Assembly (NCBI GenBank): GCA_000403275.2
Contig: KE159600.1
Span: 393,708-457,707, forward strand
Direction of reading: 5' to 3'
Origin: Lachnospiraceae bacterium 28-4
GTDB taxonomy: Bacteria > Bacillota > Clostridia > Lachnospirales > Lachnospiraceae
Length of the DNA stretch: 64,000 nt
Position numbers and translations under genes: made by a program. Under the pieces are notes generated by a model that saw only the letters and a program-made list of their open reading frames with translations, was not told the DNA's origin and ran no database searches. Shown here in pieces: positions 10,573-31,764 of the stretch (the stretch's first letter is position 1; each line of letters opens with the position of its first letter).

Positions 10573-13500
10573 TTAATAGTCCAGATCTGTTTTTAGCTTG
10601 GCTATGGTAAATACGAAGAAGTCGCTGAGGGTTGGGTTCATTTCCACTTCAATGTCTCCCGGCGGATCATCTGATACCATAACGGAGGCCATGATCTTAT
10701 AATTGGATAAATTCATTTTTGATCCGTCTTTCACCGTCAGTACCAAATCCCTTATAATAACGCCCCTTCCAATGCCTCCTGTTCCTTTTTCGATTTCCTT
10801 CAGGCTGTATTTGTAAGTGATATAAACAGAGTTCTTAAAATCTCCCACCGAAGAGCTTCCCTTTTGGAGCCCTTTCTGGAAATCGGAAGCAGGAGGGGAC
10901 ACCAGTTCCAGGGAAAGTTGGTTTCCGGTATATGGTTTATACTCAGGTGTTCCATTTTGGTTCGTTTTTTCCAGAATATGATAAGTCACCGTATAATATT
11001 TTTCCGCTATTTGCTGGTTCATGCTCTGGTTGGTATCGCTCAGAATTCCGTTAAAGTCCAGCTTGAAGTCAAAATTTACCAAGTGGGGCATGGGCGTCTG
11101 GTTATGGTATGTATTGATGCCAAGCTCCATCAGATCCTTCGTTTCCAAAGCACATGCCAGTTCTGTCTGTCTCCTTGCAATCAAGGATTTTTCATAAATG
11201 TCCAGCACTTCTCCGCCGGCCGGATAATCCGCATCTTCAATCCGCAGCAATTCCAGATTTACAACATATCTATTTTCCGTATAAGCCGACAGATCTGCAT
11301 TCGCAAAATTAAGGACAACGCTTAATTTCTCACTGACTATGCCGCTGAAATTAATTTCTCCATTTATGTCCATATCTTTTTGGACGATCTCTTTCAGCTT
11401 ATCCAACGGGAAGATAATTTTTCCATCCTTATAGAAATATACTTCTGTCCGGTTCACATATGCTCCCAGATTTTCTTCTTCCTTAATCTCCTCCTCCCAT
11501 GGCTGCACGCGGCTGCCGTTCACCGTTACGTTTGTATTGTCCGGCAGCCTTACCCGGTTGCCGTTTATATCGGTAAGATAAATTCCGATCTCTAAATACT
11601 TATTGTGGTTAGCGCTGTCTATCGTAGTCGTATTACTGTTCAACGCCCTCAGCCAATACGTCCTATCCACCTCCCATTCCCCTTTTTCGTTCTTCCTCTT
11701 CGGCATGATCTCAAAGGTAGCGTCGATTTCTACTTCTCCTCCGTCCTGTATGATGCCGGCAATATCCGTTATGCCCGCTTCTCCCTTGGAAACAAAGCCG
11801 AGCGTAAGGCCTGGCTGCATCGTCACCTTTAAATGACTATGTTCTGTCAGCGTGCTTCTTTTTGCCGTATCGCCGTCCAGCTCCGGCGTTATATGATAAT
11901 CCCTGACATTTCGCGTTGTCAGCTTCAGCTCCTCATCCACCAGCGCAGTATCCACTACGATCAGGAACCGCTCAACTGCTACATCCGTGTACGGCTCTTC
12001 TCTGTCCTCCGCCGGAAATCCATCGCCGTCTTTGTAAATATCCATTCCCTTCTCGCCATGGATCGGTTTATTTTTATATGACCCGGAACCCGGATCTTCC
12101 GGATCCACCTGGAACTGTTCGAACCGGATCGCCGTATCCTGCTCCTGGACGGTGTAATAATATACCTTATTGGAATCACATACATCGATCAGCGTCAGCC
12201 TGGTACCCGGCCATAATTTTGCCGGAACCGCATTGCCCATTTCATCCATATACGTAATTCCCAATACTTTATCGATGCAAATCGGTTTATCATCCTTGCT
12301 GTACTTATCCCTTGCGCTTCCATAGATGTATTCCATGTACAGCGTATATGTGCTGTCGTTCGCCAGCAGCGGATTTTTGTCCGTTCCTTCCGCCTTTGCT
12401 TTATCGGCATTATATACTTCGCCTTCTACCATCTTAAGGTAAGTATCGATTGTCAATCTTTCCACCACAAAAGCAGGTATTTTCAACTCTATTGTTTTGC
12501 CGTCTACGCTGCCTCCATCAACTGCCGTGTAGTCTTTCTGCCGGTAGGTAATCGTAATCATGGAAAATGTGGTTCCTTTTCCGTTTTCATCTTCCTCGTC
12601 ATAATTATTATAAGAAAGTTCTACCCTGTCGTGTCCATTTTCCTTGTCATGATACTTAATGCTTTCCTTTCTGCCGGCGTCTCCGTCCTGAACCGCTCCG
12701 TTTTCCACTTTCATCGGCTCCACGGATATGCCTATGATCTCGTTCATTCCCTCATCATAAACGCTGTCTGTATTCTCGGTTCCGCTGTTATGGACTCCGC
12801 CCGCTCCTGTCAATGCGGCCAATACGCCTCCCATCAGCTGATCCACCGTTCCATACTGCGTATCCAGAACAATCATGGGAAGAGTTACTTCCACTCCGTT
12901 ATCCACGATCGCTACCCGGGAAAGATAGCCGTCTTTATTTTTATATGAATTTTCATAAATATCGGACACATTCCTTCCGGACTCGTTCACAATATTCAAG
13001 CGGTAGGCATCCAGCAACTCCTGCGATCCCACGGATACGCCGCCCATGACCTTCCTGTACGCTTCCAGCACCGCGTCTGCGTTCACCTGTGAGAACAGGC
13101 CGTCCGCCCCTTCCTGGGTATTCTTCCACAATTCTGCCGCCGTATTGTTTGCGCTGTTATCCGGCTCAAAATAAATGACATGTATATTTCTTCGATAATC
13201 ATAAGGAGAAGAGAGCAAAGTATTCTCTTCCTCCGCCACTGCCTCCTTGCTTCCCGTATCTACTGAGGGCCTGGTTGCTGCACTATCGGCATAGCCCACC
13301 TCCGGTCTTAGGAAATAAGCATGGCCGTCCCCGTCATACGTACCCACCAGGTTTCCATAATAGAGCGAATACTTACCGATCTCCTCTTCTTTCAGGTTCA
13401 AAGGAAGTTCGCCAAAGCCGCTTCCATTCCACAGCTTGGCATCCTGTCCCTGAATCTCTGTCATTGCGGCATCCATAGCGTTTATTTGTCCCGCTATCCC

Positions 13501-16500
13501 GTCGCTAAATATTTGTTTTACCGTATTACTATTTGCAACATCGCAGAAGCCGATCGCATTGTCCTCGACTCCCGCCTGGTAGGAATAAATCTCCTTTGTC
13601 AAACCCAAGTAACCGAATACGCCTCCCGCGCTCTGCTTTTTTATGTCATTCCTATGGCAGCTGAAAATCTGGTTCTCCGCTATGGAAACTTCATCCAAAT
13701 TGTGGCTGTCCTGCGCATCCGAAGAGTTTTCCTTCCTTCCGGCAAATCCTCCTGCCGCGCTTTCCACAGACCCGCTCCCAATAGCAACAATCGTATTGCC
13801 TTCAATCAAAACATCGCTAAAACAGGTTTTCTTGCTCCTGTCTGTCCCAAACGCTCCTCCCGCATAATATCCCAATATGCGGTTGTCATGTATACTGATA
13901 CGGTTTCCTGTACTTCCGTCCGACCATATATTTCCGATCTGCTGCTTATCGTCCGCTATGCCGGCAATACCGCCTGTATTTTTCCCATAAATATCGCATT
14001 GTTCTACCTGGAGCAAGCCCTTTATTTTCTGGCTTCCCCTATCATTCAGCACATGGATTCTTCCATAGATGCCTCCCATACCCGCAGAATCGCCGATTCT
14101 CGACAGATCTCCGTTGCTGCCGATCTTACAGGATAAAACGCTCACATTTTCCAGCTGGGAATCCAGCTGGCCGACTGCGTTTCCTATGATACCTCCGGCC
14201 GCTCCCTGTCCGCTTCTGACCACACAGTTTTCTACCGATGCCTCGCAGACGGTAAACGTTTCTATCGCCGATGCCCGGCCGGCAATTCCTCCGGCCGCTC
14301 CTGTAGAAATGCCCGAAGCCTTGTCCGCCGCCTTGTCCGCCCGGCTTCTGCTGTCCGAAACAATATTCATGCCGGAAATTTTGGCATTTTCTATTGTAAT
14401 ATACTTACTCGCTTCCGCTGCCGCCTCTCCGTCCCAACATGCTCCTATCATTCCCCCGGCATTGGACAGGCGGGAAGAAATCTCATACTGCGGCTTACCG
14501 TCCAGCATATCTCCCTGCACTTTCGCATTCGTTATACTAACCCTGCTCTTATAATAGCAATATCCGATCATGCCTCCAGCATTCAGATCCCCTTGAGGCG
14601 CATTGTTCCGATCCGCCCCATTTTCCATGTTTCCATATGCGGAACGTATATTAGTATTAATGACATTGGTATCCTTTATTTCACATGTCGCCTCTCGGTG
14701 AAGTTTACCGATAATCCCCCCCGTACCGAAAGAACCATAGGTTATTTCATTCCTGTTTTTGCTCTCAATCATGCTGTCAGATACCGTAATATTGGCAATC
14801 GTTATGCACGGATCGACCTCGTTCTGCCGGAACCCATAATATTCCCCTACGATTCCCCCTGTGCTGTCGCTTCCGTCCACCCAGACGTATTGCACATCCG
14901 CGTCCGTTCCCACACTGTCCGTTACGCGGAAATTGATTCTTGTCCTGATATTATCATTTGACTGATGGTGTTTTCCCACATGGCCGGCCATACCTCCGCT
15001 TCTTCCACGGGCCCATCCTTCCTGGTCGTCTCCTGCCAGCCCTGTACGGCTGCATTCGTTTTCAATATACACATAATACGGATTTCCGTCTTTCTCTTCT
15101 CCTAAAACCTTACATCCATCCAGACTCAGCGTATATCCGTCCAAATCATTTTCATGCCAGGTAGACATCGTTCCCACAATACCGCCGCTGCTTCCGCCCA
15201 GCGTATGAATCACCGTTCCTTTATCCGCTCCTCCGTCCTTCACCGACAGCACCTTGCAATTTGTAAAGGAATAATTCTTCGCCCTCGGATCCGTCCTCGT
15301 ATTCGCTGGAAGGTTGATCCACGCCACAATGCCCGCAGCCTGCCCTTTACTCCATACATCAACGTTTTTGACCGTTATATTTTCAATCGTCCATGGGCGG
15401 CGCATCATCCCTACCAGGGCGGCCGCGCGATCCGTCGCATAATTCGTACTATTATCCCCTTCCATGGAATCGCTGCTTTTAAAAATACCCGTTATGGTCA
15501 GATTTTTAATGGAATAACTATTTACCGCATCCGTATTCACCAGATCGTTAAACAAAGCCGTCGTATGAATTCCTTTTGCATAATCGTTGATCATTTCCGC
15601 CCTGACAGTAGCACCTTTTCCATCAAAGTTCGCCCTGAAATCGGAGTATACACCGTTTCTCGGCGTCATGTTTGCAGTCACTTCATCTGCATTGAACACC
15701 CGGTAAGTTGCGCCAAGGCCGCGGAACCCCCTTTGATATACCGACAGATCATAATCGATGCTACCGTTCAACTGATAAGTCATCACTGCACTTACCGCAT
15801 TGGTCACGGCATTCAGCTTGCTCCTCCATTTCTTTCTGCCGCCATCGGAACCATAACTTTCCAACGTCCGATAAAAGCCGCCCGCTCCTCCTTCATTGCT
15901 GTTCTCCGCACTGGTTCCGTCAAAAGAGAAGTATCGGTAAATATACGGATACCAATATACATCATCATCTTTTCCTGTGGCAGCCATGAATTCTGCAGTC
16001 GGCGCGGCAACGTTACCCACTTCGTCATACTTCGCCTTCCGGCATGATGCATACTTATCATATCCCCCGCCATCATAATATACGGAGAAAGCATCCGAAT
16101 TAATTGCCATAGACACAATTTGAAGCTGTGCCGCATTGGCAATATCGCAAGTATAATTTCCTCCGCCGGGACGGATCGGTATCTTATTCTTTTCCCCTTC
16201 CATCCCGGATGCTGTAATCACATCATAAGTATTGGAAAAGGGCAGAAGGCCATGGTCATAAATACCCGGAAGATGCTTCGCATCATGGGCAAGTACTTTC
16301 TCATTGGCCGATGTTCCGCTTCCTTCATAAATCACAAATCCGTTTTCCACCCTTCCGATCGCCCCGGACGCAAAAGGATAATTCGCTATTTCGGGAGTTC
16401 CTGCCTCCATATATTCGTTGCTGCCTCTTAACAGCCCCCATCGGAACCCGTCCAAATGATCTTCCGATAAACCACGCAGGATCAGGGAACCCTGCTGTAC

Positions 16501-19500
16501 CGTTCCCGCATATCCCCCCACAGCGGCATTGACTCCATTGGCTGCCGCATCCACCGCCATAAGGACATCCACCGTTACATTATCAATCATATTATCGCCG
16601 CCCAGAATGCACCCCATCACAGCGCCGCCGCTGTTGCTTACGCGTACTACATTGGTCAGCAGATCGTTGTCATCTTGCGGCTCCTCCGCGCTGGCAATTC
16701 TGATATCTTTTACAACCGCTCCTTTTGCATACTGTATCAGCCCAAAATAATCACAGGTATTTCCTCTTCTCTTATGAGGCAGGATAATCGTCGGCACGCT
16801 GCCGCCAGCGACATTCTCTTTCCCCACAATAACTCCGGAAAACGGATAATCCGTCGTCCCAAGCCCGACGAAACTCTGTACCACAGCCGCATCGCCGGAA
16901 CTCTTCAACGCGGAAAAATCAATATCATCCATAATCATATAATATGCTTTCCGCAGTTCTTCACGGGTCGGAAAATCAGCATCTCCGTAGGTTTTCAAAG
17001 TAGCTTCCGTATGGTTTTTCGTACATATCCCATTCCCGTCCAGCGATTCCGTACTCCCTGGCGTTCTTATTTGCCATTCTTTCAAATACTCCTGGTTGTT
17101 CCCATTAATCAGATAATAGGACAATGCCAGAAGCTGCTTCGCGCTTGTGATCTGATACGGGTCTTCATAAGTTCCGCAGCCCATATCGACAGAAACATTC
17201 TTCGGATTGACCTGGATATGCTTGTTCTCCGTATGGACCGTACATACATAAGGAAGGTAATCGTTCCAGGCAATCGTCCCTTTATAATCCAGATCCGCTT
17301 CCCCATCCTTATTCCAATATTCAACGCCATTCTTTAATTCACTGCCGATGGTGACATATGCGCCTATAGAGCCATAATTGTTGTCCCCGAAAATGCCCCC
17401 TTCAAACGGGGCTTTTGTACTATTTCCGGTGGCTGACATATCCAAACCTTTGTATGCTTCTTCCGTAAATAAATATCTGACACGCCCCCTATTTTCCTGC
17501 GTATTGTCCGTAAATTCATGTTTATCGATCAATATCGCCCACCGAAAGACGCCCTCACTCTTATTTGCCGGATTTCGATCCGGGTTTTTTCCTCCCACCC
17601 TGATGTTGGTAAAATCCAGCTTCAAATTCTTTGCGGATGTATTGCCGACTCTCCCGATCAAAGCTGAAGCCGCATATTTTTGCCGGGAATTATCGTTATA
17701 TCCTTCCGTTTCCAGCCAACTGATATTCATATCAGTGTTATCCCCTATCGTTCCGATCAAAAGGCCATATCCATGCGCCGCCCCTCCAAAGCCATTCATA
17801 TAAAGATCCTTCAGGCGGATTTTACATATGGTGTTGCTGCCGCTGACGGACATCACAAATAATGCCCCGGAATCCTCATGAAGCCGGGTGATTTTTCCTT
17901 GCAGCGTAAGATAGTCTTCATTTCCCTGAACCGTTACTCCGCCTCCCGGGCTGACCAGCAGCCCGCTATGCATCATATAATTCTCTCTCCGGTTCCCTTC
18001 TCCCTCCTTAACTTTTTCCGTCAGCCCTCCATTGATGTCCGTCAGCTTATCGCCATGGAAAATAATGGTGGCCTTATTTTCTGTCCGAACCGTGCAGTTC
18101 CCCACAGGAGTCGGATAGTAACCCCTGTGATTCAAATCAATCGTTCCCCGTATGGTTACTCCTGTATTTTTCGCAGGTACCGCTTCCCCCACAAAATAAG
18201 GTTTCAAATATCTGCGAAGCGAATCGTTGATATACTGGGACAAATGCCAGATCATCATTTGATCCGCATCCGCAATAACCAGATCCGCTCCGTTCAGCTT
18301 CCTGTTTTCCGGCAGAAACGAAGCCTCCCCTGCCAGGGAAGTTCCGAACAGATTATAGTAATACCTCGTATTGTTAGAACCCGCGTCTTGGTTAAACAAA
18401 TGACTGCTGTATGCAATGAAGTCATTCTGAAAAGCAGGGCTTATAATATTGACAATTCCCCCGTTCGTATAATTTCTTCTATCTTTATTATCCCCCATAT
18501 TGCTTCCGACGACTTCGCCAAACTTGGCTGTCACGCCCGTTACGCTGACTTTCGCATTGTTCGCCGCAAAATTGATCGAGTCTGCCCTTACGCCCATCCC
18601 CTGATCGGCGATCTGATAATCCTCCAATTCTATCAGCGCGTTATGCCCGTTATGGAATAATAAACCGTTATGATTGCTTCCCCCTGAAGGATTTGCATAA
18701 AAAGAACCGTTCCTTATATAAATTTCTTTCAGCTGGATCCTGCCCGTCACCGTATGTATCAGCCCTCCATATCCGCCGCCGGTGGAATAAGAAGGTCCAT
18801 TCGCCGCCGTACTGCCGTCGCCCACTACCAGATGAGCAATCGAATAATTTCCAGCGCAGGGGGCGATTCCAAACCATTTCCATCCAAGAAGCCCTCCTGT
18901 TTCTCCTACATCGGTTATATTAATCCTCGTATCTTTTGTTATCTCAATATTCTTCATATCCAGCGTTACTCTGTCCCTGCTCCGGTCTTGCGCCGCATTC
19001 TCCATATTTATCTGAGTAATCATACCGCTGGTAAAGCGGCTGCCGGAAGTAATCTGCGCAGCAATTTCCAGTCCGTCTATCTTTATAACAGGAATTTCAG
19101 GACTATCGGCAGCATATTTCGCAATCGCTCCTCCAATATACTGCTTTCGGTTCAGGTCATTCGTATTTTGGATAACCTCAAAGCTCCCCCCGATCCTGCT
19201 TCCGGTTATGCTCAGCGTCACAGCTCCCCCGGCCCGGTAATTTGCAAACATGCCTCCGTACAGATAACCGGGATTCGTTTCGTTATCGGCGCTTCCGGTC
19301 AAAGAAACCCTCATATCCACGTGATCCACCGTGACATTGCCGGATGCATAAGCTGCCAGTCCTGCCGCCGCATTCTTTGCATATTTGATATTTCTTTTCA
19401 CCGTAAGATTTTTAAACTCCGCACCTTCGCCTGCGCAGGGGAACAGGGAAAGGAAGGACTGGTAGGTAATGCAATCCCCCAGGTCGATCACTGCCATCCC

Positions 19501-22680: not shown

Positions 22681-22710
22681 CTCTTTCACCTGTCCTGTTA
22701 TATCCTGACC

Positions 22711-23853
22711 TTACTCTACTTTTTCCGCCTGAATCGTATTTTTAAATTCATCCAATGTCATATTCTGTATCTCCGTGTCAAAATCTTCTTTTTTAAAAAA
22801 AACAAATTTGATCGAAGAATATGGTGCCGTTTCTATCACCATGGTTCCTCCTGCTTCGTCATATTCCACAAGCCGCGTACCCTCCGCATGATTCAAATAT
22901 CTGTCGTTCTTGTTCAGCGAAAACATATTCGGATTCCATTTAATCCGTATCTTTTGCAGCATATTATCCGTTTCCTGCGCAAAATAATTTCCTGTCGTTT
23001 TCAGCTGGTAAACCAGGGCCGATTCTTTTTTTACCCGTTCCTGCCAGCTGTCTTCCTTTAACTCATCCTCTATCGTAAACTTCTGATCGGTAATTTCCAT
23101 CTCCGTTATATTGTACTCGGCTCTGATTATTCCGGCTATTTTCTTTGTATCTTCCAGGAAAACCGGCTCCACGGGATATGCCATCAGCAATACCCTGGCA
23201 GGTTGATACGAATCCGCCGTCTGCCCGCTGCCAAGACTTACCCGCAGTACATAGTTTTCCCATGTCAGCAGACCTCCCTCCAGCGTTCCCCGGAAGCTTG
23301 CCTTCTTTATTGTATTTCCGCTGTTGAGCGGGATATAATTCCCGGTATCCACGCCGTTTATCGTTTTTCCTACGCTGTAATCCGCCCCGCCCGGCTCGTC
23401 CAGCAGAATAAATTCTATCACGTAAGCAACATTCAGATCCTTATCGTTATACAAAAGCTGATTGATGTGATTGCGAACCTCCACATCGAAAGTATAATTG
23501 TTGCCCGCAGCCCACGGCTTATTGCTGACCGCCACCATCAACCGGTTTAGCAAATCCTCATGCACCAGCTTCCCGCCGTTCCTCTTTGTTAGTTCCTCAA
23601 TATCCTCTATATCGTTGAGTCCCTCTTCCTCATACATATAATTGCTGCTGAAATAAAATCCGGAAGCGATTGCCATCCCTTTTTCATATCTTGTTTTATA
23701 ATATTTCGAATATACGGTAAAGGAAGCGCCCGCCAGTACCAGACAGCCCACTAGTATCAGCACTGTCCTTTTCCTGTTTCCCGCTCCCCACTTTTTCCAT
23801 CTCTTTCCAAACATCATAATTTTTCCCGTCTTTTCCCGATGATTCCGCTCCAT
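22711..23853 (-). CDS. Membrane-anchored surface protein of the SipW locus
   Basis: Not recognised as a named family. The 380-residue protein has a basic N-terminus, one hydrophobic segment (about residues 30-48, ending GASFTVYSKYY) and a long extracytoplasmic part predicted to be beta-rich. The segment after the hydrophobic core resembles a SipW-type export signal only loosely, as it lacks the typical AWF/AYF element. ATG 23853 follows GGGAGCAGGAA. It lies 18 bp after the preceding subunit gene and 30 bp before the giant protein gene, so it is very likely co-transcribed and may act with the giant protein. Confidence 0.75.
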   Translation of the reverse strand: MERNHREKTGKIMMFGKRWKKWGAGNRKRTVLILVGCLVLAGASFTVYSKYYKTRYEKGMAIASGFYFSSNYMYEEEGLNDIEDIEELTKRNGGKLVHEDLLNRLMVAVSNKPWAAGNNYTFDVEVRNHINQLLYNDKDLNVAYVIEFILLDEPGGADYSVGKTINGVDTGNYIPLNSGNTIKKASFRGTLEGGLLTWENYVLRVSLGSGQTADSYQPARVLLMAYPVEPVFLEDTKKIAGIIRAEYNITEMEITDQKFTIEDELKEDSWQERVKKESALVYQLKTTGNYFAQETDNMLQKIRIKWNPNMFSLNKNDRYLNHAEGTRLVEYDEAGGTMVIETAPYSSIKFVFFKKEDFDTEIQNMTLDEFKNTIQAEKVE

Positions 23854-23871
23854 TTCCTGCTCCCATATCCA

Positions 23872-24612
23872 TTAGCGCTCCGTCGGCCTTGGCTGCTTTG
23901 CGTTTACCACTACATAAACCAGATCCGTCTCTTTCTTATATGCGTCAAAATCGCTGATATCCTGCCATGTTACTTCGATCAGATAATAATCGTATTCATA
24001 AGTTCCGTTGTTATAAGCAAGCTTCATGCTGTTATCATCAAAAAAAAGATACTGTCCTGCATTCACAATATCCGTAATATCCGTTTCCCCGAACACTTCT
24101 TTCCGCATCTTCTCCGTATGATCGCTCCCTTTAATGGGCGATGCCTGTTTCATCCAGTAATAGGTTTTATAAGCCGGGTCGTCCCCTTCCATGCAAATCG
24201 CTCCGTCCGGCAGCTGCCCTCCCGCCGGTATCTGCTTCCTTTCCAGAGGATACACCGCATAGTCCACCGCCAGGTTTTCCGTATGTACAAGCTGCAAATC
24301 ATAGTTAAATTCCGAATCTTTTACAAGCTCCGACATATTGTCTTCCCCGTCATAATTTTCCGGCACCCGGTTGGAGACGCATATCACCGTATGTTTGACC
24401 TCTCCCGGATGCAGGTTGCCTACCGCAAACTTTAAAGAATCTTTGGCATTAGGGTTCATCAGGTACAAATTATAAGGAGCCATTACTTCCGCTCCGGTAG
24501 TCTGCGCCTGTTTTACATCTTCCCGCAAATACCATGCGAGGGTTCCGCCCCCTGCCGCCAGGCAAAGCGCTGCCAGGATTATAATTATCATTATTTTCTT
24601 TTTTATTTTCAT
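23872..24612 (-). CDS. SipW-cognate TasA-like surface subunit
   Basis: This 246-residue secreted protein has a short basic start, a hydrophobic segment and the sequence AGGGTLAWYLRED at its end (residues ~20-32). That matches the SipW-cognate signal pattern (GGTLAWF/YFT) found on TasA/CalY-type proteins. The mature part carries conserved-looking features of this group, including GNLHPGEVKHTVICVSN, a segment resembling the 'PG..h.....v.N' motif of TasA-like beta-sandwich subunits. ATG 24612 follows GCGAGGAATGGG. A sipW gene lies about 0.8 kb upstream in the same operon, which supports processing by that enzyme. Filament formation is an inference. Confidence 0.75.
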   Translation of the reverse strand: MKIKKKIMIIIILAALCLAAGGGTLAWYLREDVKQAQTTGAEVMAPYNLYLMNPNAKDSLKFAVGNLHPGEVKHTVICVSNRVPENYDGEDNMSELVKDSEFNYDLQLVHTENLAVDYAVYPLERKQIPAGGQLPDGAICMEGDDPAYKTYYWMKQASPIKGSDHTEKMRKEVFGETDITDIVNAGQYLFFDDNSMKLAYNNGTYEYDYYLIEVTWQDISDFDAYKKETDLVYVVVNAKQPRPTER

Positions 24613-24660
24613 CCCATTCCTCGCTTTCCTGCTGCTTTTTCATGCCCTTTCTATGCTGCG

Positions 24661-25446
24661 TCATTCCTCTTCCGTCGTCTGCCCCGTGATATATACGTCA
24701 AACCAGATATGGTCTATGTAATTCCCAAGCATCGTATCTTCCTCGTCATATTCTCTGATTTTCTCCTGCAGCTCTTCCTCTGGCAGATTTTCATTACCCG
24801 GTATATCGCTATATTCATAATTCCAGACCCAATAAATCTCGGCCTTGACCTCCGTATTAAAGACCAGTTCTCCCGTAGCCGCAGTGCCATCCTCCGCATC
24901 CGCAGCCGTATAATATTCCAGCGGATCGGAAAACTTTCCCCATCTTCCCTGTCCGTTTTCCGAAGATACGGTTTCCATTTCCGTATATACGCTGATATGT
25001 CTTTCCATCAGCTCTTTTATTTTTTCCCTCTGTTCCGGCGACAATTTATCGCCGGCTCCCTCCTCTTCCCTGTAAGACAGCCTCACTTTTATGGAATATC
25101 CCGTTACCGTCTCCCCAAGGGAAGTAATATAAAACGTCATGGGGCCATAGGAGCCTGGCGCGATCATCTGCTCCTTTACATTATTTAAATCCGTCAATTT
25201 CACCGGAATCACAGGGATTCCGTCCTCATTCACTTCCGGCAGCATCATAATATCCGGTCCTCCCGGCTCTATGGCTACCTTCAGCCCCCCAATTCCTCCC
25301 GCTCCTATCTCCATCCCGCTCATAACCGCCGTGTTATTGGCCGAATACCAAGCCGTTGTCGCCGAAAAAAGCACAACGCAAAGCAATAGGAACATCACAA
25401 AAGAAAGTATGATCTTTTCCTGGAATAACCTCTTAAGCCTCTTCAT
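24661..25446 (-). CDS. SipW-cognate TasA-like surface subunit
   Basis: A 261-residue protein with a basic N-terminus, a hydrophobic core and FSATTAWYSANNT at residues ~27-40, a SipW-cognate signal pattern. The mature part includes MIAPGSYGPMTFYITSLG, resembling the 'PG' turn region of TasA/camelysin-like subunits, and an acidic C-terminus. The start codon lies 14 bp inside the 3' end of sipW, with AGAGGAAAAG upstream, so translation is coupled to the peptidase. It was identified by signal pattern and context rather than by close family resemblance. Confidence 0.78.
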   Translation of the reverse strand: MKRLKRLFQEKIILSFVMFLLLCVVLFSATTAWYSANNTAVMSGMEIGAGGIGGLKVAIEPGGPDIMMLPEVNEDGIPVIPVKLTDLNNVKEQMIAPGSYGPMTFYITSLGETVTGYSIKVRLSYREEEGAGDKLSPEQREKIKELMERHISVYTEMETVSSENGQGRWGKFSDPLEYYTAADAEDGTAATGELVFNTEVKAEIYWVWNYEYSDIPGNENLPEEELQEKIREYDEEDTMLGNYIDHIWFDVYITGQTTEEE

Positions 25447-26002
25447 CTTTTCCTCTTTTCCGCATTGCTCTTCCGACTTCTTTTATGAGTTGTACTACAC
25501 AGGATGCCAGACATAGGACGATCGGTAAAATAATTGCGACAAAATAAAAATCCTTTTCCGCCAGTTTATCCAAAAAACGGGATAATGTTTTCCCATAAGG
25601 CAGCTTACCAATATATTTTCCAACAATATCATCTTCCGAAACGGTATACTCGTCCGTCCATACATTGTTGTCACCCTTTGTAAAATAAATAGTTTCTCCT
25701 GTCATATAATCTCTGGCAATATCATAAATACGATGGGTATTATATGCTCCATTCAGAGACGGATCCCCGGAAATAAAAGTAATAATATCTCCTACGGCCA
25801 GTTCGTCCTCCCCTATCCCCTTAATGATAATGCAGTCTCCACTCGCAAATACAGGTTCCATGCTGTCCGTGATTACGCGCAGCACGCGATAGCCGAAAAA
25901 TGCCGGCGTCCTGTTATATGCAGCCGATACGATAAAATAGCAGAGATATAACGTAACCATTATAAATATTAAGTTGCCTGCCCCCGCCAATAACTTCTTC
26001 AT
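25433..26002 (-). CDS. sipW: SipW-type signal peptidase I
   Basis: A membrane signal peptidase of the archaeal/ER type, which removes signals from TasA-like proteins. The 189-residue protein has an N-terminal membrane helix, the Ser nucleophile motif VITDSMEPVFASGD (residue ~46), YNTHRIYDI with the His that replaces the usual catalytic Lys, and TKGDNNVWTDE for the C-terminal box. A C-terminal helix (FYFVAIILPIVLCLASCVV) ends in a basic tail. The start overlaps the end of the DUF2357 gene by 1 bp and the 3' end overlaps a subunit gene by 14 bp. At least three genes in the operon encode proteins with matching signals. The call is firm. Confidence 0.92.
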   Translation of the reverse strand: MKKLLAGAGNLIFIMVTLYLCYFIVSAAYNRTPAFFGYRVLRVITDSMEPVFASGDCIIIKGIGEDELAVGDIITFISGDPSLNGAYNTHRIYDIARDYMTGETIYFTKGDNNVWTDEYTVSEDDIVGKYIGKLPYGKTLSRFLDKLAEKDFYFVAIILPIVLCLASCVVQLIKEVGRAMRKRGKDEEA

Positions 26003-27333
26003 TATTTGCCGCCCATTTTACGTTTCGCAGCCCTCTCCTGCCTTCTCTGCCGAAGCGACTGTCTCTTTGCCTTTGCTTTTCCTCTTTTATCTTCTTCTCC
26101 CGGCATAACAATATTTTTTTCGTTGTCTACGTCTTCCAGCGTCAGTTCCCCTTCTCCCTGCTGTATCTGATTCCTGCGGATTTCCTTCCGTTTCTGCCTG
26201 TTAATGCGTTCCAATTCCGCCAATTCTGCTTTCCGTTTCATCTGTAGGTCGGTCAGTTCCTTCATCACCAGCTTTTTCAAGGCTGCATCGCTCAGGCTGG
26301 TTTTCAATACCATTTCCTCCAGCATCTGCCGAATCTGTTTTACGTCCATCTCCCGTTCCTTTTGGGGATGGTCGATATTAATATCGTTGGCAAACTTCAT
26401 ATTATTATGGAGTATCGCATAATCCCTGATCACCGTATTATAAATATCCCTTTCAAACTGCCTGGATATCGTCGGTTCCTGCTTCACGATATTTACTTTA
26501 TATCCGACTCTGTGATAAGAGTGAATAAAATTCCATAATTTATGGCATGCTTTATAGTCTTTGTTCTTTCCGATCACGTTGGTCTTTACAATCGGATGCG
26601 CCACCGCCGGATACCGTTTCATCATCCCGATAAATTCGGTTGCCGCAAGCATATTGACCTGCTGGTGTATCTTTATAATCCGGGCAAAAATATTATTATT
26701 TTCTTCCTCATTATTCACGTCCGTCTGTTTCTCCTGTATCTTCACGGACAAATTATATTCTATGACTTCCGTATAATTATCCACACGGGATTCCATTTCA
26801 AAAAAGGTTCCGACCTCATCCTTGCTGGCCTCAAAAATCACATTAAACCGCTTGTTGACAAAATACTGAAGTTCCGCCATCAGTGTACAGATAAAACGGT
26901 TCTCATAGATATTGATACTCTCTTCCTTGTATACGTTGAGTATCCTGCTGGGAATCACCGTCCCGTCCTCCCTGTATTCGTCGATCAAGTTGCTGTGCTG
27001 CAGAAGATGGCGGATAGACTCCGTCGTAATGTTCCTCGCCATGGCCACGTTCACGACTTCCCTTTCCTCTTCAATAAACTTTCTTGGATGAACGATAACA
27101 TAGTGCAGGGACGGCATAGCCTCTTCAATCTCTCTAACCCATTCCTCATCGATGCTCTTTACCAGCTTCGCATTGGAGAACTTGCAATAATTGCTCGCGT
27201 TTTCCAGCAGATTATAAAAATAATTATAAAATTTGTCGTCTTTCAGCTGCTCCTGCACATCCTCCCGGTTCATCTTCCGGTAAGTTTCATGCACATAGCC
27301 AATGCCTTCCGTATTTTCCATAATCTTCTCCAT
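26002..27333 (-). CDS. DUF2357-type partner of the McrB-like ATPase, nuclease domain not seen
   Basis: This 443-residue protein has the N-terminal helical region and the segment IYENRFICTLMAELQYFV typical of DUF2357/McrC-like proteins that pair with McrB-type ATPases. In restriction systems such proteins carry a C-terminal PDDEXK nuclease. Here the C-terminus (about 330-443) is a charged, Lys/Arg/Glu-rich helical tail and I find no D...ExK pattern. No signal peptide or membrane helix is seen, so it should be cytoplasmic. The start is 1 bp from the end of the ATPase gene and the stop touches sipW. The tight junctions imply a stoichiometric complex. Domain assignment is from motif memory and should be checked. 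Confidence 0.7.
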   Translation of the reverse strand: MEKIMENTEGIGYVHETYRKMNREDVQEQLKDDKFYNYFYNLLENASNYCKFSNAKLVKSIDEEWVREIEEAMPSLHYVIVHPRKFIEEEREVVNVAMARNITTESIRHLLQHSNLIDEYREDGTVIPSRILNVYKEESINIYENRFICTLMAELQYFVNKRFNVIFEASKDEVGTFFEMESRVDNYTEVIEYNLSVKIQEKQTDVNNEEENNNIFARIIKIHQQVNMLAATEFIGMMKRYPAVAHPIVKTNVIGKNKDYKACHKLWNFIHSYHRVGYKVNIVKQEPTISRQFERDIYNTVIRDYAILHNNMKFANDINIDHPQKEREMDVKQIRQMLEEMVLKTSLSDAALKKLVMKELTDLQMKRKAELAELERINRQKRKEIRRNQIQQGEGELTLEDVDNEKNIVMPGEEDKRGKAKAKRQSLRQRRQERAAKRKMGGK

Positions 27334-27334
27334 A

Positions 27335-28942
27335 TTATCCTGCGCTCATTCTCTTAAGCCTTGCCAGATATGCCTTGCTGATCTTCATGTTCTCCCCGCC
27401 GAACTGACGGTTCAGATATACAACCAGGCCGTCCAGTTCATCTCTGATAAAGCCCAGGCCCAAAGATTCAAACTTACGCAGAATTTTCTTGGAAAACATA
27501 AAATCGATCCCGTCGATCTCCGTCCCCCCGCAAGCCACATAGCAAGGGACAAATTCCTTCAACTGGCGCATAATCCTGTTACCGAATGTAAGGCGGAAAT
27601 GTTCGATCAGGTACTTATCCAATTTGTCCAGAAGAATAAGATTTTCTTCCGATATGGGATATTTTTTCTTTGCCTCTTCGTACAATTCTTCCAAATGCTT
27701 ATAACTTAAGCGCAGCGGTTCCGTATCCGGCGCTTCAAAAAATTCCGCCCGGTCATCCAGATCAATAGGAATCGCCCGGTCATACACCTTATCCGCCACC
27801 GCAAAGGTGGAATCATCATTGTTGATCGTCCCTACATACCATACATTATTCGGAATCCAGATTTTCCCTTCTTTCATCAATGCCGGATCGTTCGCCGCCG
27901 TATTGGAAACCACCGTGACAAACCGTTCTTCCTCTCTTGGCAGTTCCAATATGGAAAGCATTTCTGCAAAGTAATATTCCACCCTTGCGATGTTCATTTC
28001 GTCCAAAATCACGATTCTTGGATCTTCATAATAATGCGCTTCATATAATGTTTTCAGGAAATCCGTTTCCGTATACTTTTTCGTAAAATCATTATAGTAG
28101 CCAAACAGCTCCGTTCTGTCCCTCCAGGAAGGCTGTACGGAGCATATGACGCTGGAATTCTGAATGTACTGCCCGAAAGCATACGGGAGGGAAGTTTTAC
28201 CTGTTCCCGATATTCCTTGTAAAATAAGCATTTTTGCCGCTCCAAAAGAGGCAAACGCCTGTTTCATCACTTCCAGTTCATAATACAGGCCCAGCTTGCT
28301 TGCCGCGAAGTTGCGGAAGTTAATGCATATCTCCTCCAGGCTTATCGTGTTATTATAGACCGGCGGCACATATTCCGGATCGGTATAATACAAATCCACC
28401 GCAGAGAGCCTCGGAAATCTTCGCTCTTTCGTCTCGACCATTTCCATGCCTTCCTCTTCCGCTACTGTTTCTTCCGGCTCCGCGGCGGCGTCCGACTCTG
28501 CTTCCTCCATCCCTTTTTCCAAAAGCGGGTTCGGAGTTTCCAGCAGATCCGCGTTCACTTCCATGCCAAGCTCCGATATCTTCATGGCGAGAATTTTATC
28601 CTTTTCATAGTTGGCCTTCATGATCTCCCGTTTCAGCGTCACTACTTCGTCCTTCATTTTCTCATATTCCACCACGGGAACTTTAAAGCGGAAAATAACT
28701 TTTAACGCCTTATATACCAAAAATACAAACAGGGCGAGCAGCAGAAGCAGCAGAATATGTACGATGATCGCGGCTATCCACCCGAGAGGAGACAGATCAT
28801 CCCTGTAGGTATTGAACAGTTCCATATAATAGCGAATATCAAAAATTCCGAAAATAGCATCCTTGATCGCGACCAGCACATTCCAGATATGTCCGAAGAT
28901 ACTCCTCATAAAGTTATAAAAATAGTAAAAAAATGCGTTCAT
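27335..28942 (-). CDS. Membrane-tethered McrB-like AAA+ ATPase
   Basis: The 535-residue protein has an N-terminal amphipathic segment, a strong membrane helix (about 52-84), a coiled-coil/acidic linker (90-190) and a C-terminal AAA+ domain of the McrB/MoxR-like group. Visible motifs are Walker A QGISGTGKTSL (242-252), the McrB-type SWRDRTELFGYYN (272-284), Walker B IVILDEMNIARVEYYFAE (310-327), sensor GTINNDDSTF (371-380) and DRAIPIDL (388-395). McrB ATPases normally power DNA restriction with McrC and are soluble; here a membrane anchor and a SipW/TasA operon suggest a role in building or regulating a surface structure. ATG 28942 opens a gene adjoining the DUF2357 gene. Confidence 0.82.
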   Translation of the reverse strand: MNAFFYYFYNFMRSIFGHIWNVLVAIKDAIFGIFDIRYYMELFNTYRDDLSPLGWIAAIIVHILLLLLLALFVFLVYKALKVIFRFKVPVVEYEKMKDEVVTLKREIMKANYEKDKILAMKISELGMEVNADLLETPNPLLEKGMEEAESDAAAEPEETVAEEEGMEMVETKERRFPRLSAVDLYYTDPEYVPPVYNNTISLEEICINFRNFAASKLGLYYELEVMKQAFASFGAAKMLILQGISGTGKTSLPYAFGQYIQNSSVICSVQPSWRDRTELFGYYNDFTKKYTETDFLKTLYEAHYYEDPRIVILDEMNIARVEYYFAEMLSILELPREEERFVTVVSNTAANDPALMKEGKIWIPNNVWYVGTINNDDSTFAVADKVYDRAIPIDLDDRAEFFEAPDTEPLRLSYKHLEELYEEAKKKYPISEENLILLDKLDKYLIEHFRLTFGNRIMRQLKEFVPCYVACGGTEIDGIDFMFSKKILRKFESLGLGFIRDELDGLVVYLNRQFGGENMKISKAYLARLKRMSAG

Positions 28943-29009
28943 CCTTCTCTCCTATTCTCGCTTCTCCCGCTTCTCCCGCTTCGCTATGCCCTTTTACCGA
29001 AACAGCATC

Positions 29010-29945
29010 TTATCTTCCGCCTTTTACCTCCGAAGAAATAAATTGTATGTTTCCGATGATCTCGTCCAATTCGTTCGAATTGGTACAGTCTTCGTCCGTT
29101 CCTTCCATCCAGACGCGCATCGTCACTTTCACGTCCTGTTCTTCTTCAATCTCAAACAGCTTTTCCGAATTGCCCTCCTCGCCATTTATAAAATTTCCAT
29201 CGCTTGTCTGCTGTAATGTTTTATATGTTCCATAAGAGTCTTTTACGTTATCGATAGCCTTCTCAGGATCACTGTTATGTTTATCGCTGTTCGGTTCCCA
29301 TATGGCGATCTCCTGCCCCTCCACTTCAAAAGAAATGCGGATGGAATTCGCCGCCGTATCGCCGGGCGTCGTACTCGTTACGCCATCGGCCTGCCGCACC
29401 CAGCAGCCGCTGACTTCCTCTCCGGCCTGTTCAGGTCCTAACAGCATAATCTCGTAAGTTTTCATTGCTCCCTGCGAAACCCTTTTTCCCTTGCTGTTTT
29501 TCAGGCTCCCCGCCTTCAGATAAAAAGTCTTTTCATATACATACTGCTGGTTCAGTTCATCCAGATCCGTAATTTCCTTGACATCGCTCACTGCCTTTCC
29601 TGTGTATACCGGAGCATAAAACATCTGCCCGTCCTTCGTTGTCACGGGATTCAGCAATACCTCCTCCATAGGGAACTTTTGCGTAGCCGTTTTCAAATCC
29701 AGCTCCTCGTCATACTCCCCCGGCCCGCCGCCCAGATCGTCGGCGATCATCAGATCCCCGGCTGCCGCCGCGGAAAGCGCAAGATTCAGCACTTTGGGTT
29801 TATTATTCATCGTAAACCACGCGTAAGTCGCAGTGGATAATACCGCCAGATATAACAGACACATCAACAGCCTGGCTTTCAAACCCTGCTTTTCCTGTTT
29901 TTCTTTTCTTTCTTTTTTTTCTTCCGCTATAATCCCTTTTCCCAT
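29010..29945 (-). CDS. SipW-cognate TasA-like surface subunit
   Basis: A 311-residue exported protein with a long charged N-terminal region, a hydrophobic core and TATYAWFTMNN (about residues 37-47), a clear SipW-cognate signal. The mature part is followed by a C-terminal segment VTMRVWMEGTDEDCTNSN and IIGNIQF. This resembles the end of the neighbouring upstream protein (VVIWLEGEDPECVDAIIGG), so the two are probably paralogous subunits. The ATG at 29945 follows GGAGGAGGCAA at ideal spacing; an in-frame ATG at 29984 has no ribosome site. It lies 68 bp upstream of the ATPase gene in the same operon. Confidence 0.82.
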   Translation of the reverse strand: MGKGIIAEEKKERKEKQEKQGLKARLLMCLLYLAVLSTATYAWFTMNNKPKVLNLALSAAAAGDLMIADDLGGGPGEYDEELDLKTATQKFPMEEVLLNPVTTKDGQMFYAPVYTGKAVSDVKEITDLDELNQQYVYEKTFYLKAGSLKNSKGKRVSQGAMKTYEIMLLGPEQAGEEVSGCWVRQADGVTSTTPGDTAANSIRISFEVEGQEIAIWEPNSDKHNSDPEKAIDNVKDSYGTYKTLQQTSDGNFINGEEGNSEKLFEIEEEQDVKVTMRVWMEGTDEDCTNSNELDEIIGNIQFISSEVKGGR

Positions 29946-29992
29946 TTGCCTCCTCCGTCCCTTTTGCCCGCTTCCCCGCTTCATCTAATCAT

Positions 29993-30904
29993 CTAATAAG
30001 TAAAACTCATTGCCAACTCTATTTCTCCTCCTATAATTGCATCCACGCATTCCGGGTCTTCTCCCTCCAGCCAGATCACCACCGTAAACTTATCCATTCC
30101 GTCATGTTCAAAATCCGGCCTTAATCCGGTGCAAATTGTTTTTTCGGAAGCAAAAGGCACCGTTTGCAGCTGATAGATGCCATTCAAACTGTCGAAATCG
30201 TGGTAATCAATAACCTCCTGGGTAATATAGCCCGGATTTCTGTTAGAAATCATGCCCTGTTGTTTTTCGGGATGCAGCGCGTATTCCTGAAACGGGAACT
30301 CAAATTCCGAATATTGGCATTCGGGATGCCCTTCCTTATTCGCCTTTGCAAAAATCTCCTGTTTGCCGTTGTGGAACAACATAATCCATGCAGCTTCCTC
30401 TATTCCCTGCGTTTTATTTCTCATAAACAGCGTATACCTGTAATCTTTTGTTTCCCCTGTCAGATTTTTTACATAAAACGTATAGGCAAACACATCATCG
30501 CTGTGATGTTCTCCGTCAATGTCCATCACATCTTCGTCAATATTGTATATGCTTATGTTCGTGGCATCCACCAGCGCATCCGCGTGAAGCGTGATCAACT
30601 TTTCATCAAAATTGGGAATCTCCGAAAGATAAAAGCCGTCCCTGGCCATTTCCCTGTCCACCTTTACCACAAATTCCCCCGCATTAGTATAAAACGCCGC
30701 CATAATAAATGCCACCAGCAAAATCAGCAGGATAATGGCGATTGTCTGTTTTGCCGCATGGACACGGAAAAATCCCCGGAAAAGGCTGACGCCTCCCATA
30801 TACCAATGTTTAAACCTGTTAAGCGGATCCACTCTGCTGATCAGTGTGCGCTTTATTGGGTTTCCATTCTGCCCTTTGTCCAGAAAACGTTTTCTTTTTT
30901 TCAT
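29993..30904 (-). CDS. Membrane-anchored TasA-like protein, paralogue of the next gene
   Basis: A 303-residue protein with an unusually long basic cytoplasmic N-terminus (~50 residues), one membrane helix (about 52-72, IAIILLILLVAFIMAAFY) and a beta-rich extracytoplasmic domain. The C-terminal VVIWLEGEDPECVDAIIGG matches the end of the following subunit, which suggests a shared fold. It lacks the clear AWF-type SipW site, so it may remain anchored as a base or tip component. ATG 30904 has GAGAGGGG upstream. It follows the HD-GYP gene by 58 bp. Confidence 0.72.
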   Translation of the reverse strand: MKKRKRFLDKGQNGNPIKRTLISRVDPLNRFKHWYMGGVSLFRGFFRVHAAKQTIAIILLILLVAFIMAAFYTNAGEFVVKVDREMARDGFYLSEIPNFDEKLITLHADALVDATNISIYNIDEDVMDIDGEHHSDDVFAYTFYVKNLTGETKDYRYTLFMRNKTQGIEEAAWIMLFHNGKQEIFAKANKEGHPECQYSEFEFPFQEYALHPEKQQGMISNRNPGYITQEVIDYHDFDSLNGIYQLQTVPFASEKTICTGLRPDFEHDGMDKFTVVIWLEGEDPECVDAIIGGEIELAMSFTY

Positions 30905-30962
30905 AATACCCCTCTCGCTTTTCTCTTATGGCAGACGTCTTTTATGGTTTGAAACAATAGGC

Positions 30963-31604
30963 TTAAAATCTGTCGATACATTCTCTAAAAATCTCCACTA
31001 ATTCCGGCTGAAACTGTCCTCCCGATTCTTCTTCGATAATCCGGACTGCTTCTTCCTTTGTCGTCTGTTTTTTCTTATATGGTTTCCAGCTTACGATCCC
31101 GTCATAGGTATCCGCAATAGCGCATATTCTCGCCCCTATCGGAATCTCTTCCCCTTTCTTTCCTTCAGGATATCCCCCTCCGTCGAACCTTTCATGGTGA
31201 TACACCGCGATTTTTTCCCACTGCTCCATGATTTCATCGGGAAAGGGCTGTATATAAATGCTTCTTATCGCCTTACGCGCATTTATCGTATGATCTTTGA
31301 TCATCTGTTTTTCCCCTTCGCTCAATCCGCCTACTTTATTTAAAATGGCAAAGGGAATAAAGTGTCGGCCAATATCGTGCAGAGCATAAATTCTTTCGCT
31401 GTATTCTTCAAAATCCTCCCCAAGCCTTTCCGCTACATTCTCCACGTTCTTTTCCAACATGTGCCGGTACAGTATATCCGCATATTTACCAACCCGCTTC
31501 ATATGTACCCTTACATTTCTCGGCAAAGTACTCAGCAAGGCGTCTATTGTTGGAAAGCACCCGACCTCCGAGCCTTTTACCAAGCTTCTTTCGTCTGTAA
31601 TCAA
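30963..31604 (-). CDS. HD-GYP domain protein
   Basis: HD-GYP proteins are metal-dependent phosphodiesterases, often acting on cyclic di-GMP. The 213-residue protein has the HD motif ALHDIGRHFIP at about residues 75-85, HHERFDGGGYPEG with the GYP element, and PIGARICAIADTYDGIV. All metal-binding His and Asp positions I can check are present. No sensory domain or membrane segment is seen. Translation starts at a TTG (31604) that follows GGAGG with six bases of spacing; no ATG is suitably placed. It is the first gene of the surface-structure locus, behind a strong promoter and a leader hairpin, so it may link c-di-GMP level to that locus. Confidence 0.85.
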   Translation of the reverse strand: MITDERSLVKGSEVGCFPTIDALLSTLPRNVRVHMKRVGKYADILYRHMLEKNVENVAERLGEDFEEYSERIYALHDIGRHFIPFAILNKVGGLSEGEKQMIKDHTINARKAIRSIYIQPFPDEIMEQWEKIAVYHHERFDGGGYPEGKKGEEIPIGARICAIADTYDGIVSWKPYKKKQTTKEEAVRIIEEESGGQFQPELVEIFRECIDRF

Positions 31605-31649
31605 ATGAATCCTCCATTCCCGTTAATCTGTCACAGTTTCCACACTGGC

Positions 31650-31673
31650 AAAAGCCGAACTGTTAGATTCGGC
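31650..31673 (-). terminator. Leader hairpin, possible attenuator of the surface locus
   Basis: On the minus strand GCCGAA-TCTAACAG-TTCGGC is followed by TTTT, about 50 bp upstream of the HD-GYP start and downstream of the promoter at 31736-31764. The T run is short, so termination may be partial or conditional. Confidence 0.5.
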
Positions 31674-31735
31674 CCTTCTGATCATATTGAGTCATTCACT
31701 ACATAGTCCTATTTTCTTAATTTTATATTATTTTA

Positions 31736-31764
31736 ATGATATATTTTTACCACTTCACTGTCAA
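31736..31764 (-). promoter_or_regulatory. Promoter of the SipW surface locus
   Basis: Minus strand: perfect TTGACA (31759-31764), 17-bp spacer, TATCAT (31736-31741). Transcription would start near 31729 and give a leader of about 125 nt containing the hairpin at 31650-31673. The AT-rich block 31700-31920 upstream holds no gene that I can support. Confidence 0.7.

Follow-up and report, generated by a model that had tools for sequence, protein, structure and literature searches.

Layout of the locus

The window is a stretch of 64,000 nucleotides from Lachnospiraceae bacterium 28-4. Between positions 10573 and 31764 its minus strand carries ten tightly packed open reading frames, with an HD-GYP gene first and a giant gene last, as the first-pass annotation had proposed. 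From the HD-GYP gene to the giant gene the intergenic gaps are 58, 8, 67, 1, -1, -14, 48, 18 and 21 bp, and the 1-bp and 14-bp overlaps described at sipW are therefore correct. The features are as follows, in the reading order of the minus strand and with one plus-strand neighbor at the end.

31736..31764, minus strand: putative promoter TTGACA-17-TATCAT, 11/12 consensus positions; a similar element in L012 and G004
31650..31677, minus strand: leader hairpin with an 11-bp stem that is kept in L012 and G004
30963..31604, minus strand: HD-GYP domain protein, 213 aa, c-di-GMP phosphodiesterase-like; PF13487 (HD_5) 2.5e-26
29993..30904, minus strand: predicted bitopic anchor protein M303, with a tail in the cytosol, a hydrophobic segment (45-80) and a beta-rich ectodomain; AF2 pLDDT 85.8
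29010..29984, minus strand: predicted exported subunit T324; ATYAWFT signal end, W.EG.D..C C-terminal motif; AF2 pLDDT 86.9
27335..28942, minus strand: McrB-like NTPase of 535 aa with a membrane anchor (hydrophobic segment 48-86); its motifs are Walker A GISGTGKT, Walker B DEMN and NNDDST
26002..27333, minus strand: DUF2357 (McrC N-domain) protein with a charged C-terminus; PF09823 2.6e-10, no nuclease family found
25433..26002, minus strand: SipW/ER-type signal peptidase; TIGR02228 1.8e-26, NF046067 9.2e-23
24661..25446, minus strand: predicted exported subunit T261 with an ATTAWY signal end
23872..24612, minus strand: predicted exported subunit T246, N-terminus weakly camelysin/TasA-like; PF12389 E 0.059, NF046066 E 0.066
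22711..23853, minus strand: predicted exported or anchored protein E380; hydrophobic segment 29-50
10573..22689, minus strand: giant protein of 4038 aa, predicted to be secreted; hydrophobic segment at the N-terminus, repeats rich in Pro/Gly and others resembling GLUG, a conserved C-terminus and no LPXTG
8598..10172, plus strand: GGDEF-EAL protein, convergent with the giant gene; PF00563 2.8e-64, PF00990 3.4e-12

The promoter and hairpin recur in two of the seven relatives that were aligned with the window (L012 and G004). The earlier reading of a promoter with a leader hairpin stood with regard to the promoter match and the stem, but the folding energy of the hairpin proved ordinary (z -0.89, with 38 of 200 shuffles equally good). 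A terminator scan placed no terminator at the hairpin, and a riboswitch, sought with Rfam across the whole window, was not seen in the leader at gathering score. The only Rfam matches at that score were two TwoAYGGAY elements outside the leader, and these were set aside, as they belong to a set of 62 in the genome.

The signal peptidase and the exported proteins

The peptidase scores 92.9 bits against TIGR02228 (archaeal-type signal peptidase I, cut-off 51.85), which upholds the call of a signal peptidase gene, and 80.8 bits against the Bacillus SipW equivalog NF046067, below the cut-off of 190. It is the sole match to NF046067 (E<=0.01) in its own genome, and all three matches to the T324 profile in that genome fall inside the locus. 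A hydrophobic segment ending in an AW motif is present in 177 of 219 T324 family frames, all 46 T261 frames and 21 of 24 T246 frames, compared with a background of 28 among 634 other frames having a hydrophobic segment. The motif does not single out cut subunits, because 46 of 82 ATPase frames have it as well, often as GW[IV] at the membrane segment. For E380 the count is 1/23. For M303 it is 4/68, which, set against the background, suggests that this protein is probably not cut at an AW-type signal end. Residues 31-45 of the M303 tail are among the best-kept segments in the 13 Lachnospiraceae-type rows (modal identity 0.74); the value across all 35 rows is 0.36.

Two of the proteins had been called TasA-like. 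The SipW-type signal motif is in keeping with that description, but the profile matches are weak: the best scores were 13.6 of the 22.5 bits required for PF12389 and 12.6 of 450 for NF046066, and no window subunit scored above a TasA or camelysin cut-off. Within the families, PF12389 was touched (E<=0.1) by 2 of 22 T246 rows, and the TapA profile TIGR04087 by 1 of 31 T324 rows, at 1.1e-4. Neither the M303 nor the T324 model found a Foldseek match at E<=1e-3, and the 50 best rows for each lacked TasA. Six of the ten best rows for T324 are pilins, all with low TM-scores, namely five FimA chains (including two engineered variants) and the archaeal bundling pilin 7ueg. PDB sequence searches with the M303, T324, T246 and DUF2357 profiles returned no useful match.

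The giant gene has 4038 codons from its GTG and 4035 from the next ATG, in agreement with the length first reported. Its description as a GLUG protein holds at the level of the motif, with 23 GGLVG-type sequences against a shuffled mean of 1.0 and a maximum of 5 in 500 shuffles, but no Pfam family, GLUG included, was matched at E<=0.1. Relatives of the giant were found in 16 loci. Compared with the relative G013/L012, its identity ranges from 17 to 77% per 150-residue segment, and the other products are 90% (ATPase), 88% (M303), 85% (DUF2357 protein), 81% (T324) and 76% (T246) identical.

The McrB-like NTPase and its DUF2357 partner

The best PDB profile match of the ATPase is E. coli McrB (6hz4, E 4e-5), which, together with the hydrophobic segment and Walker motifs, bears out the membrane McrB-like ATPase of the first-pass annotation; its AAA_5 match lies just under the cut-off (E 5.2e-4, 20.5 of 22 bits). 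Walker A GISGTGKT is kept in 77 of 78 ATPase frames, Walker B DEMN in 76 and GT[IA]NNDDST in 73. The NNDDST motif can be read as NxD followed by D, and an ungapped alignment with E. coli McrB sets the second D on NxxD. Ahead of Walker A, a hydrophobic segment is present in 114 of 115 ATPase frames of the window type and in 17/17 sister ATPases, but in 0/3 canonical McrBs. The ATPase also has a conserved charged stretch, a candidate coiled coil. No modified-base-reading domain was found on the ATPase by Pfam at E<=0.1, and the membrane segment occupies the N-terminus.

The DUF2357 assignment was likewise confirmed, and PF09823 is matched in 19 of 29 family members, several of which also have coiled-coil-type Pfam families. 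A profile scan of the 29 members detected no nuclease family at E<=0.01. PF04411 had no match in the own genome, but it had none in the control genomes either, and this negative carries no weight.

Conservation across genomes and the sister loci

Relatives of the ATPase are encoded in at least 563 genome stretches, from which 80 loci were kept for comparison. Neighbors were counted in six frames, with HMMs trained on these same 80 loci, in the 58 flanked by 5 kb or more on each side; the other 22 were dropped for short flanks. DUF2357 and T324 are present in 58/58, SipW in 57/58 (L017 being the exception) and M303 in 55/58, and the more variable partners are T261 (33), HD-GYP (31), T246 (18) and E380 (17). 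In the family and class draws, SipW adjoins 34 of 35 ATPases of the window type, the sole miss (L109) being at a contig end. T324 and M303 each accompany 29 of the 35, and DUF2357 accompanies 33, its two misses (L132 and L146) again being contig ends. One flanked locus, L116, has SipW and no recognizable subunit family, and L134 begins near a contig end. The class-draw matches G451 and G699, also at contig ends, were left out, G000 and G004 were not taken a second time, and several draw loci are places already in the first set (e.g., L036/L112). The ATPase, DUF2357 protein, SipW and exported subunits are thus a conserved unit, and the co-occurrence that had been proposed as a check of their joint action is found. 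The locus occurs in 4 of 16 genus genomes and in 25 of 397 family genomes, three of the latter with the sister type only; in the phylum draw, the ATPase was seen in 1 of 299 genomes, namely its own.

Nine near-relative loci encode membrane-anchored ATPases with SipW in 0/9, and eight of the nine are McrB-DUF2357-McrB tandems. Homologues that never cluster with sipW, the case held up against the original proposal, are therefore seen in this sister type and not in the window type. Each of the eight tandems lies next to further proteins that carry hydrophobic (membrane) segments at the N-terminus, so that a linkage to the envelope is common to both membrane branches. The canonical McrBs (n=3) have neither the membrane segment nor the SipW linkage. 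Distant McrB controls were drawn from G033 (L103, a 5-kb contig), G036, G011 and G023; the locus from the last (L102) gave no match to the McrB HMM and was dropped, and the DUF2357 HMM had no match in any of the four control loci. In an ATPase tree covering 59 of 134 sequences, SipW-linked and other ATPases separate with a support of 84/94 and in 83% of bootstraps, a split that is not strong, given these values and the long branches of L103 and L145. The conserved SipW, subunit and anchor linkage, the membrane sister loci and the canonical McrBs with neither trait favor an envelope role over DNA restriction.

Relation to known systems

The first-pass annotation knew of no described system joining these parts. 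This was mistaken, because the locus fits CoCoPALM, a name that Bell et al. 2024 (eLife, PMC11090510) introduced in a single paragraph. The available sections of that paper describe an McrB-like NTPase with NxD rather than NxxD, an FtsB-like transmembrane segment with a coiled coil, a neighboring signal peptidase and an McrC/DUF2357 homologue that usually has a coiled coil. The window shares the membrane McrB-like NTPase, DUF2357 partner and signal peptidase, and those sections offer no analysis of subunits, an anchor, a giant protein or c-di-GMP genes. A literature search on the name found no follow-up, nor, in the sources available, a mechanism or component analysis, and none gave a function for relatives of the window-type ATPase. 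The locus counts for the partners, the SipW-free membrane sister loci and the contrast with canonical McrB are new.

As in the tapA-sipW-tasA operon of Bacillus and sipW-bsaA of Clostridium perfringens, a SipW-type peptidase adjoins exported beta-rich subunits; the window subunits, however, score under the TasA and camelysin cut-offs, and the available text on the two operons mentions no AAA+ ATPase or DUF2357 protein. With canonical McrBC and CoCoNuT the locus shares an McrB-type AAA+ domain and a DUF2357 partner, but its membrane segment stands where canonical McrB has the base-reading domain, the profile scan gave no nuclease family and the neighbors are exported proteins. MoxR-type RavA-ViaA, an AAA+ protein with a dedicated cofactor to which the maturation of other complexes is ascribed, is comparable in the way it works only and is not classed in the same family; it is not known to be linked to SipW.

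Proposed mechanism and alternatives

From the gene content, the conserved linkage and the hydrophobic anchors, together with the lack of a detected nuclease family, we infer a membrane-tethered McrB/DUF2357 machine that assembles or remodels a SipW-processed surface polymer, a reading to which we give roughly even odds (about 0.5). T324, T261 and T246 would be exported and cut by SipW at xAW[FY] signal ends, and the beta-rich subunits would then polymerize outside the cell, perhaps by donor-strand exchange as in TasA. M303 would retain its membrane segment and cytosolic tail and root or nucleate the polymer. On the cytosolic face, the tethered NTPase would form a ring, activated by the DUF2357 protein without a recognizable nuclease, and act on the M303 tail or on uncleaved subunits, and would thereby drive assembly, set its timing or undo it. 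The giant repeat protein may be an exposed, fast-diverging cargo or adhesin, and the HD-GYP and convergent GGDEF-EAL proteins may link the polymer to c-di-GMP. SipW-dependent polymers have been demonstrated for TasA (PMC9674648) and BsaA (PMC7395162). The ATPase pair may power export or assembly, although the need for energy is not evident, since recombinant BsaA polymerizes from E. coli without partners (PMC7395162) and the available text of the TasA paper makes no mention of ATP (PMC9674648).

The ring could instead be a sensor or regulator that reads the state of the polymer through M303 and governs the synthesis of subunits, the activity of SipW or c-di-GMP, with no role in power. The HD-GYP gene, which comes first in the window and is present in 31/58 loci, the convergent GGDEF-EAL gene and the M303 tail kept among close rows would suit such a role, but it is improbable: keeping a whole AAA+ domain with its Walker motifs (77/78 and 76/78) seems costly for sensing, and neither a kinase nor a transcription factor family was found in the nine smaller proteins, and the giant matched no Pfam family. 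AAA+ rings are common protein remodelers, and this ATPase is membrane-anchored, so quality control or disassembly, in which it pulls subunits that are misassembled or uncleaved out of the membrane or takes the polymer apart, also has to be weighed. A role in maturing complexes is ascribed to MoxR ATPases (PMC3893208); yet, apart from the signal peptidase, no protease family scored above cut-off in the nine smaller proteins, and we consider this account unlikely.

A membrane anti-phage system, in which the McrBC-derived NTPase responds to infection and the surface proteins sense it or form a barrier, would accord with the McrB ancestry seen in the 6hz4 match, with the ATPase's match to the PADLOC candidate defense model PDC-M26A (9.5e-39) and with the view, in the available sections of PMC11090510, that CoCoNuT relatives are defensive. 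The patchy occurrence (4/16 genus and 25/397 family genomes) fits defense, but is also compatible with surface loci. The core of a signal peptidase with exported subunits is stable, the DUF2357 partner has no detected nuclease family, and at E<=0.01 the DUF2357 and SipW proteins have no PADLOC match and the HD-GYP protein only weak Cas3-HD matches, all of which makes defense doubtful. That the ATPase pair is an unrelated passenger, merely co-transcribed, is very improbable. A shared operon does not by itself prove joint action, but the SipW linkage of 57/58 and 34/35 loci contrasts with a sister type that lacks SipW in 9/9.

Returning to the assembly machine, a wider and more tentative proposal is that McrB/DUF2357 machines in one membrane-anchored group shifted from nucleic-acid work to nucleotide-driven building or remodeling of extracellular polymers. 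There would be two branches, one with a single ATPase, SipW and beta-rich subunits, and one with the ATPase-DUF2357-ATPase tandem and membrane-anchored transglutaminase/antigen-like proteins. If true, this would be a new class of energized Gram-positive surface-assembly machine with M303 as its transmembrane coupling rod. Should the coupling prove genuine, secreted proteins would be handled across the membrane by a repurposed restriction-type motor, and some Clostridia would have an energized, sortase-free surface polymer. The M303 anchor and the SipW-free sister branch make the motor question directly testable.

The GGDEF-EAL gene at the 3' end of the giant gene lies outside the stretch covered by the first-pass annotation. 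Among the 16 genus genomes it is present in precisely the 4 that have the locus, is convergent with the giant gene in 4/4 of them and is a possible c-di-GMP partner of the locus. By title, many of the 80 loci kept for comparison come from gut or rumen genomes.

Organization of the locus

Ten genes stand in a row on the minus strand of the window, from 31604 to 10573, flanked on the left by a convergent GGDEF-EAL gene and on the right by a divergent QueT gene. The tight packing claimed in the first-pass annotation, including 1-bp and 14-bp overlaps at sipW, was borne out: from the HD-GYP gene to the giant gene the intergenic gaps are 58, 8, 67, 1, −1, −14, 48, 18 and 21 bp, with the two negative values flanking sipW, and this spacing makes a single predicted transcript likely. 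The promoter and leader hairpin proposed earlier were both located, and both are also present in L012 and G004 among the seven relatives aligned with the window, but the folding energy of the hairpin is ordinary. The names M303 (a bitopic anchor), T324, T261 and T246 (exported subunits) and E380 (exported or anchored) were coined in this analysis from a letter and the length in amino acids.

Features of the locus and its surroundings (window coordinates)
31764–31736, minus: putative promoter, near-consensus
31650–31677, minus: leader hairpin
Gene 1, minus: HD-GYP protein, 213 aa
Gene 2, minus: M303, 303 aa
Gene 3, minus: T324, 324 aa
Gene 4, 27335–28942, minus: McrB-like NTPase, 535 aa
Gene 5, minus: DUF2357 protein, 443 aa
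Gene 6, minus: SipW-type peptidase, 189 aa
Gene 7, minus: T261, 261 aa
Gene 8, minus: T246, 246 aa
Gene 9, minus: E380, 380 aa
Gene 10, ending the row at 10573, minus: giant repeat protein, 4038 aa
8598–10172: GGDEF-EAL gene, convergent with the giant gene
10281–10441 and 61832–61993, minus: TwoAYGGAY RNA (RF01731)

The ATPase matches E. coli McrB (6hz4; E 4e-5) across the Walker A, Walker B and sensor motifs, and has a single hydrophobic segment (residues 48–86) with a conserved stretch of charged residues behind it. In the DUF2357 protein the McrC N-domain was recognised (2.6e-10), and no nuclease family was detected in the 29 DUF2357 proteins scanned. The peptidase scores over the TIGR02228 cut-off and under that of the Bacillus SipW equivalog; within its genome, matches to the SipW model (one) and to the T324 profile (three) are confined to this locus.

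Conserved linkage

A profile search of genome contigs with the ATPase alignment returned at least 563 relatives, from which 80 loci were kept; HMMs were built from these, seeded with the window proteins, and same-strand frames within 6 kb were counted. Both DUF2357 and T324 were found in all 58 loci that have flanks of 5 kb or more on both sides, SipW in 57, M303 in 55, T261 in 33, HD-GYP in 31, T246 in 18 and E380 in 17. The sole flanked locus without a detected SipW gene, L017, has the ATPase, DUF2357 and subunits. Going by their titles, the named records of the 80 loci fall in Lachnospiraceae, Oscillospiraceae/Ruminococcus and other Clostridia or are unplaced, with one in Erysipelotrichaceae (L072).

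Since the HMMs were trained on the same loci, the count was repeated on genomes drawn from the family and class. The ATPase was matched at E ≤ 1e-60 in 25 of 397 family genomes; the class gave 21 of 391, and a draw from the phylum gave 1 of 299, its own genome. Of 44 loci fetched from the family and class draws, some shared with the first set of 80, 35 belong to the type seen in the window; SipW is present in 34 (the single miss, L109, lies at a contig end), DUF2357 in 33 (misses at contig ends), T324 and M303 in 29 each, and at least one of T324, T261, T246 and M303 in 33. No subunit was recognised by these HMMs in L116, which has flank. The expected co-occurrence of McrB-like, DUF2357 and SipW genes thus held in both sets. 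Identity to the relative G013 (L012) drops outward, from 90% for the ATPase through M303 (88%), DUF2357 (85%) and T324 (81%) to T246 (76%).

Exported subunits and the anchor

An AW motif at the end of a hydrophobic segment occurs in 177 of 219 T324, 46 of 46 T261 and 21 of 24 T246 family frames, against 28 of 634 among the remaining frames that have such a segment; M303 has it in only 4 of 68. The tail of M303 is predicted to be cytosolic, and its residues 31–45 are among the best kept M303 segments in 13 Lachnospiraceae-type rows (modal identity 0.74); across the full 35 rows they lose that standing (0.36). M303 and T324 are both beta-rich in their AlphaFold models (pLDDT 85.8 and 86.9), and Foldseek gave neither model a match at E ≤ 1e-3. 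Pilins make up six of the ten best T324 rows (five FimA chains and 7ueg, an archaeal bundling pilin that belongs to a kind termed TasA-like in PMC9674648), with low TM-scores; "TasA-type" therefore serves here as a working label that does not place the subunits in a family, and the same limit applies to the earlier "TasA-like".

Envelope or defence

Nine fetched loci with near relatives of the ATPase have none of SipW, T324, T261, T246 or M303 (0 of 9); eight are McrB-DUF2357-McrB tandems (L123, L124, L125, L140–L144). In the tree the SipW-linked ATPases all lie on one side of a moderately supported branch (84/94; 83% of bootstraps). An N-terminal hydrophobic segment is present in 17 of 17 sister ATPases from the nine loci, and related proteins lie downstream of all eight tandems, with such a segment in all 13 frames found. 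The three of these scanned match AgI_II_C2, one above the cut-off and two just under, and one also matches a transglutaminase core (8.1e-22). In three canonical McrBs the hydrophobic segment is absent, and neither SipW nor subunit genes lie nearby. Membrane anchoring and exported neighbours thus coincide in both branches, which favours envelope work and speaks for the ATPase pair acting there rather than on nucleic acids. Of the rival readings, a role in defence has the most external support, given that the ATPase hits the PADLOC candidate defence model PDC-M26A (9.5e-39), a name under which no literature was found.

On the envelope reading, the McrB/DUF2357 pair would be a cytosolic machine working through bitopic M303 on a polymer of the SipW-dependent type, which it may build, time or dismantle. 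TasA and BsaA are SipW-dependent, sortase-free polymers (excerpts of PMC9674648 and PMC7395162), and in Bacillus cereus the chaperone-like CapP acts on filaments of this sort (PMC13082335). The first-pass annotation knew of no described system that joins these parts, but the excerpted text of Bell et al. (2024; PMC11090510) names such a kind, CoCoPALM, combining a membrane McrB-like NTPase, a DUF2357 protein and a signal peptidase. The locus fits this kind; for two of the defining features, the ATPase motif can be read as NxD or as NxxD, and the conserved charged stretch is a candidate for the FtsB-like coiled coil. Beyond that excerpt go the subunit and anchor families, linkage counts, giant, c-di-GMP neighbours and SipW-free sister branch. 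Searches found nothing related under the name CoCoPALM beyond Bell et al., and no literature joining McrB, DUF2357 and SipW.

Neighbouring genes and repeats

The operon opens with HD-GYP, and its genome has 11 GGDEF matches, 10 over the cut-off. Of 16 genus genomes, the four that carry the locus are exactly those with this GGDEF-EAL gene, which each time runs convergent to the giant; these genomes may be closest kin, so the tie to c-di-GMP is suggestive only.

A hydrophobic segment lies at the N-terminus of the giant, which also has Pro/Gly-rich repeats; no LPXTG was found in it. Its description as a GLUG protein stands for the motifs (23 GLUG-like, against 1.0 in shuffles) but not for a family, with no Pfam match at E ≤ 0.1. 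Against G013 its identity is 17–77% by segment, the C-terminal part being among the best kept. L068 and L084 each have one very large ORF (2554 and 2553 aa; the stretch end may cut them) directly after the ATPase pair, downstream of DUF2357, where the subunit row sits elsewhere.

Across the genome, 62 matches to TwoAYGGAY RNA exceed the gathering score; they lie on both strands and include several close divergent pairs (e.g., C3:653045− and 653430+), a pattern more like that of an interspersed or mobile repeat than of a single cis-regulator.
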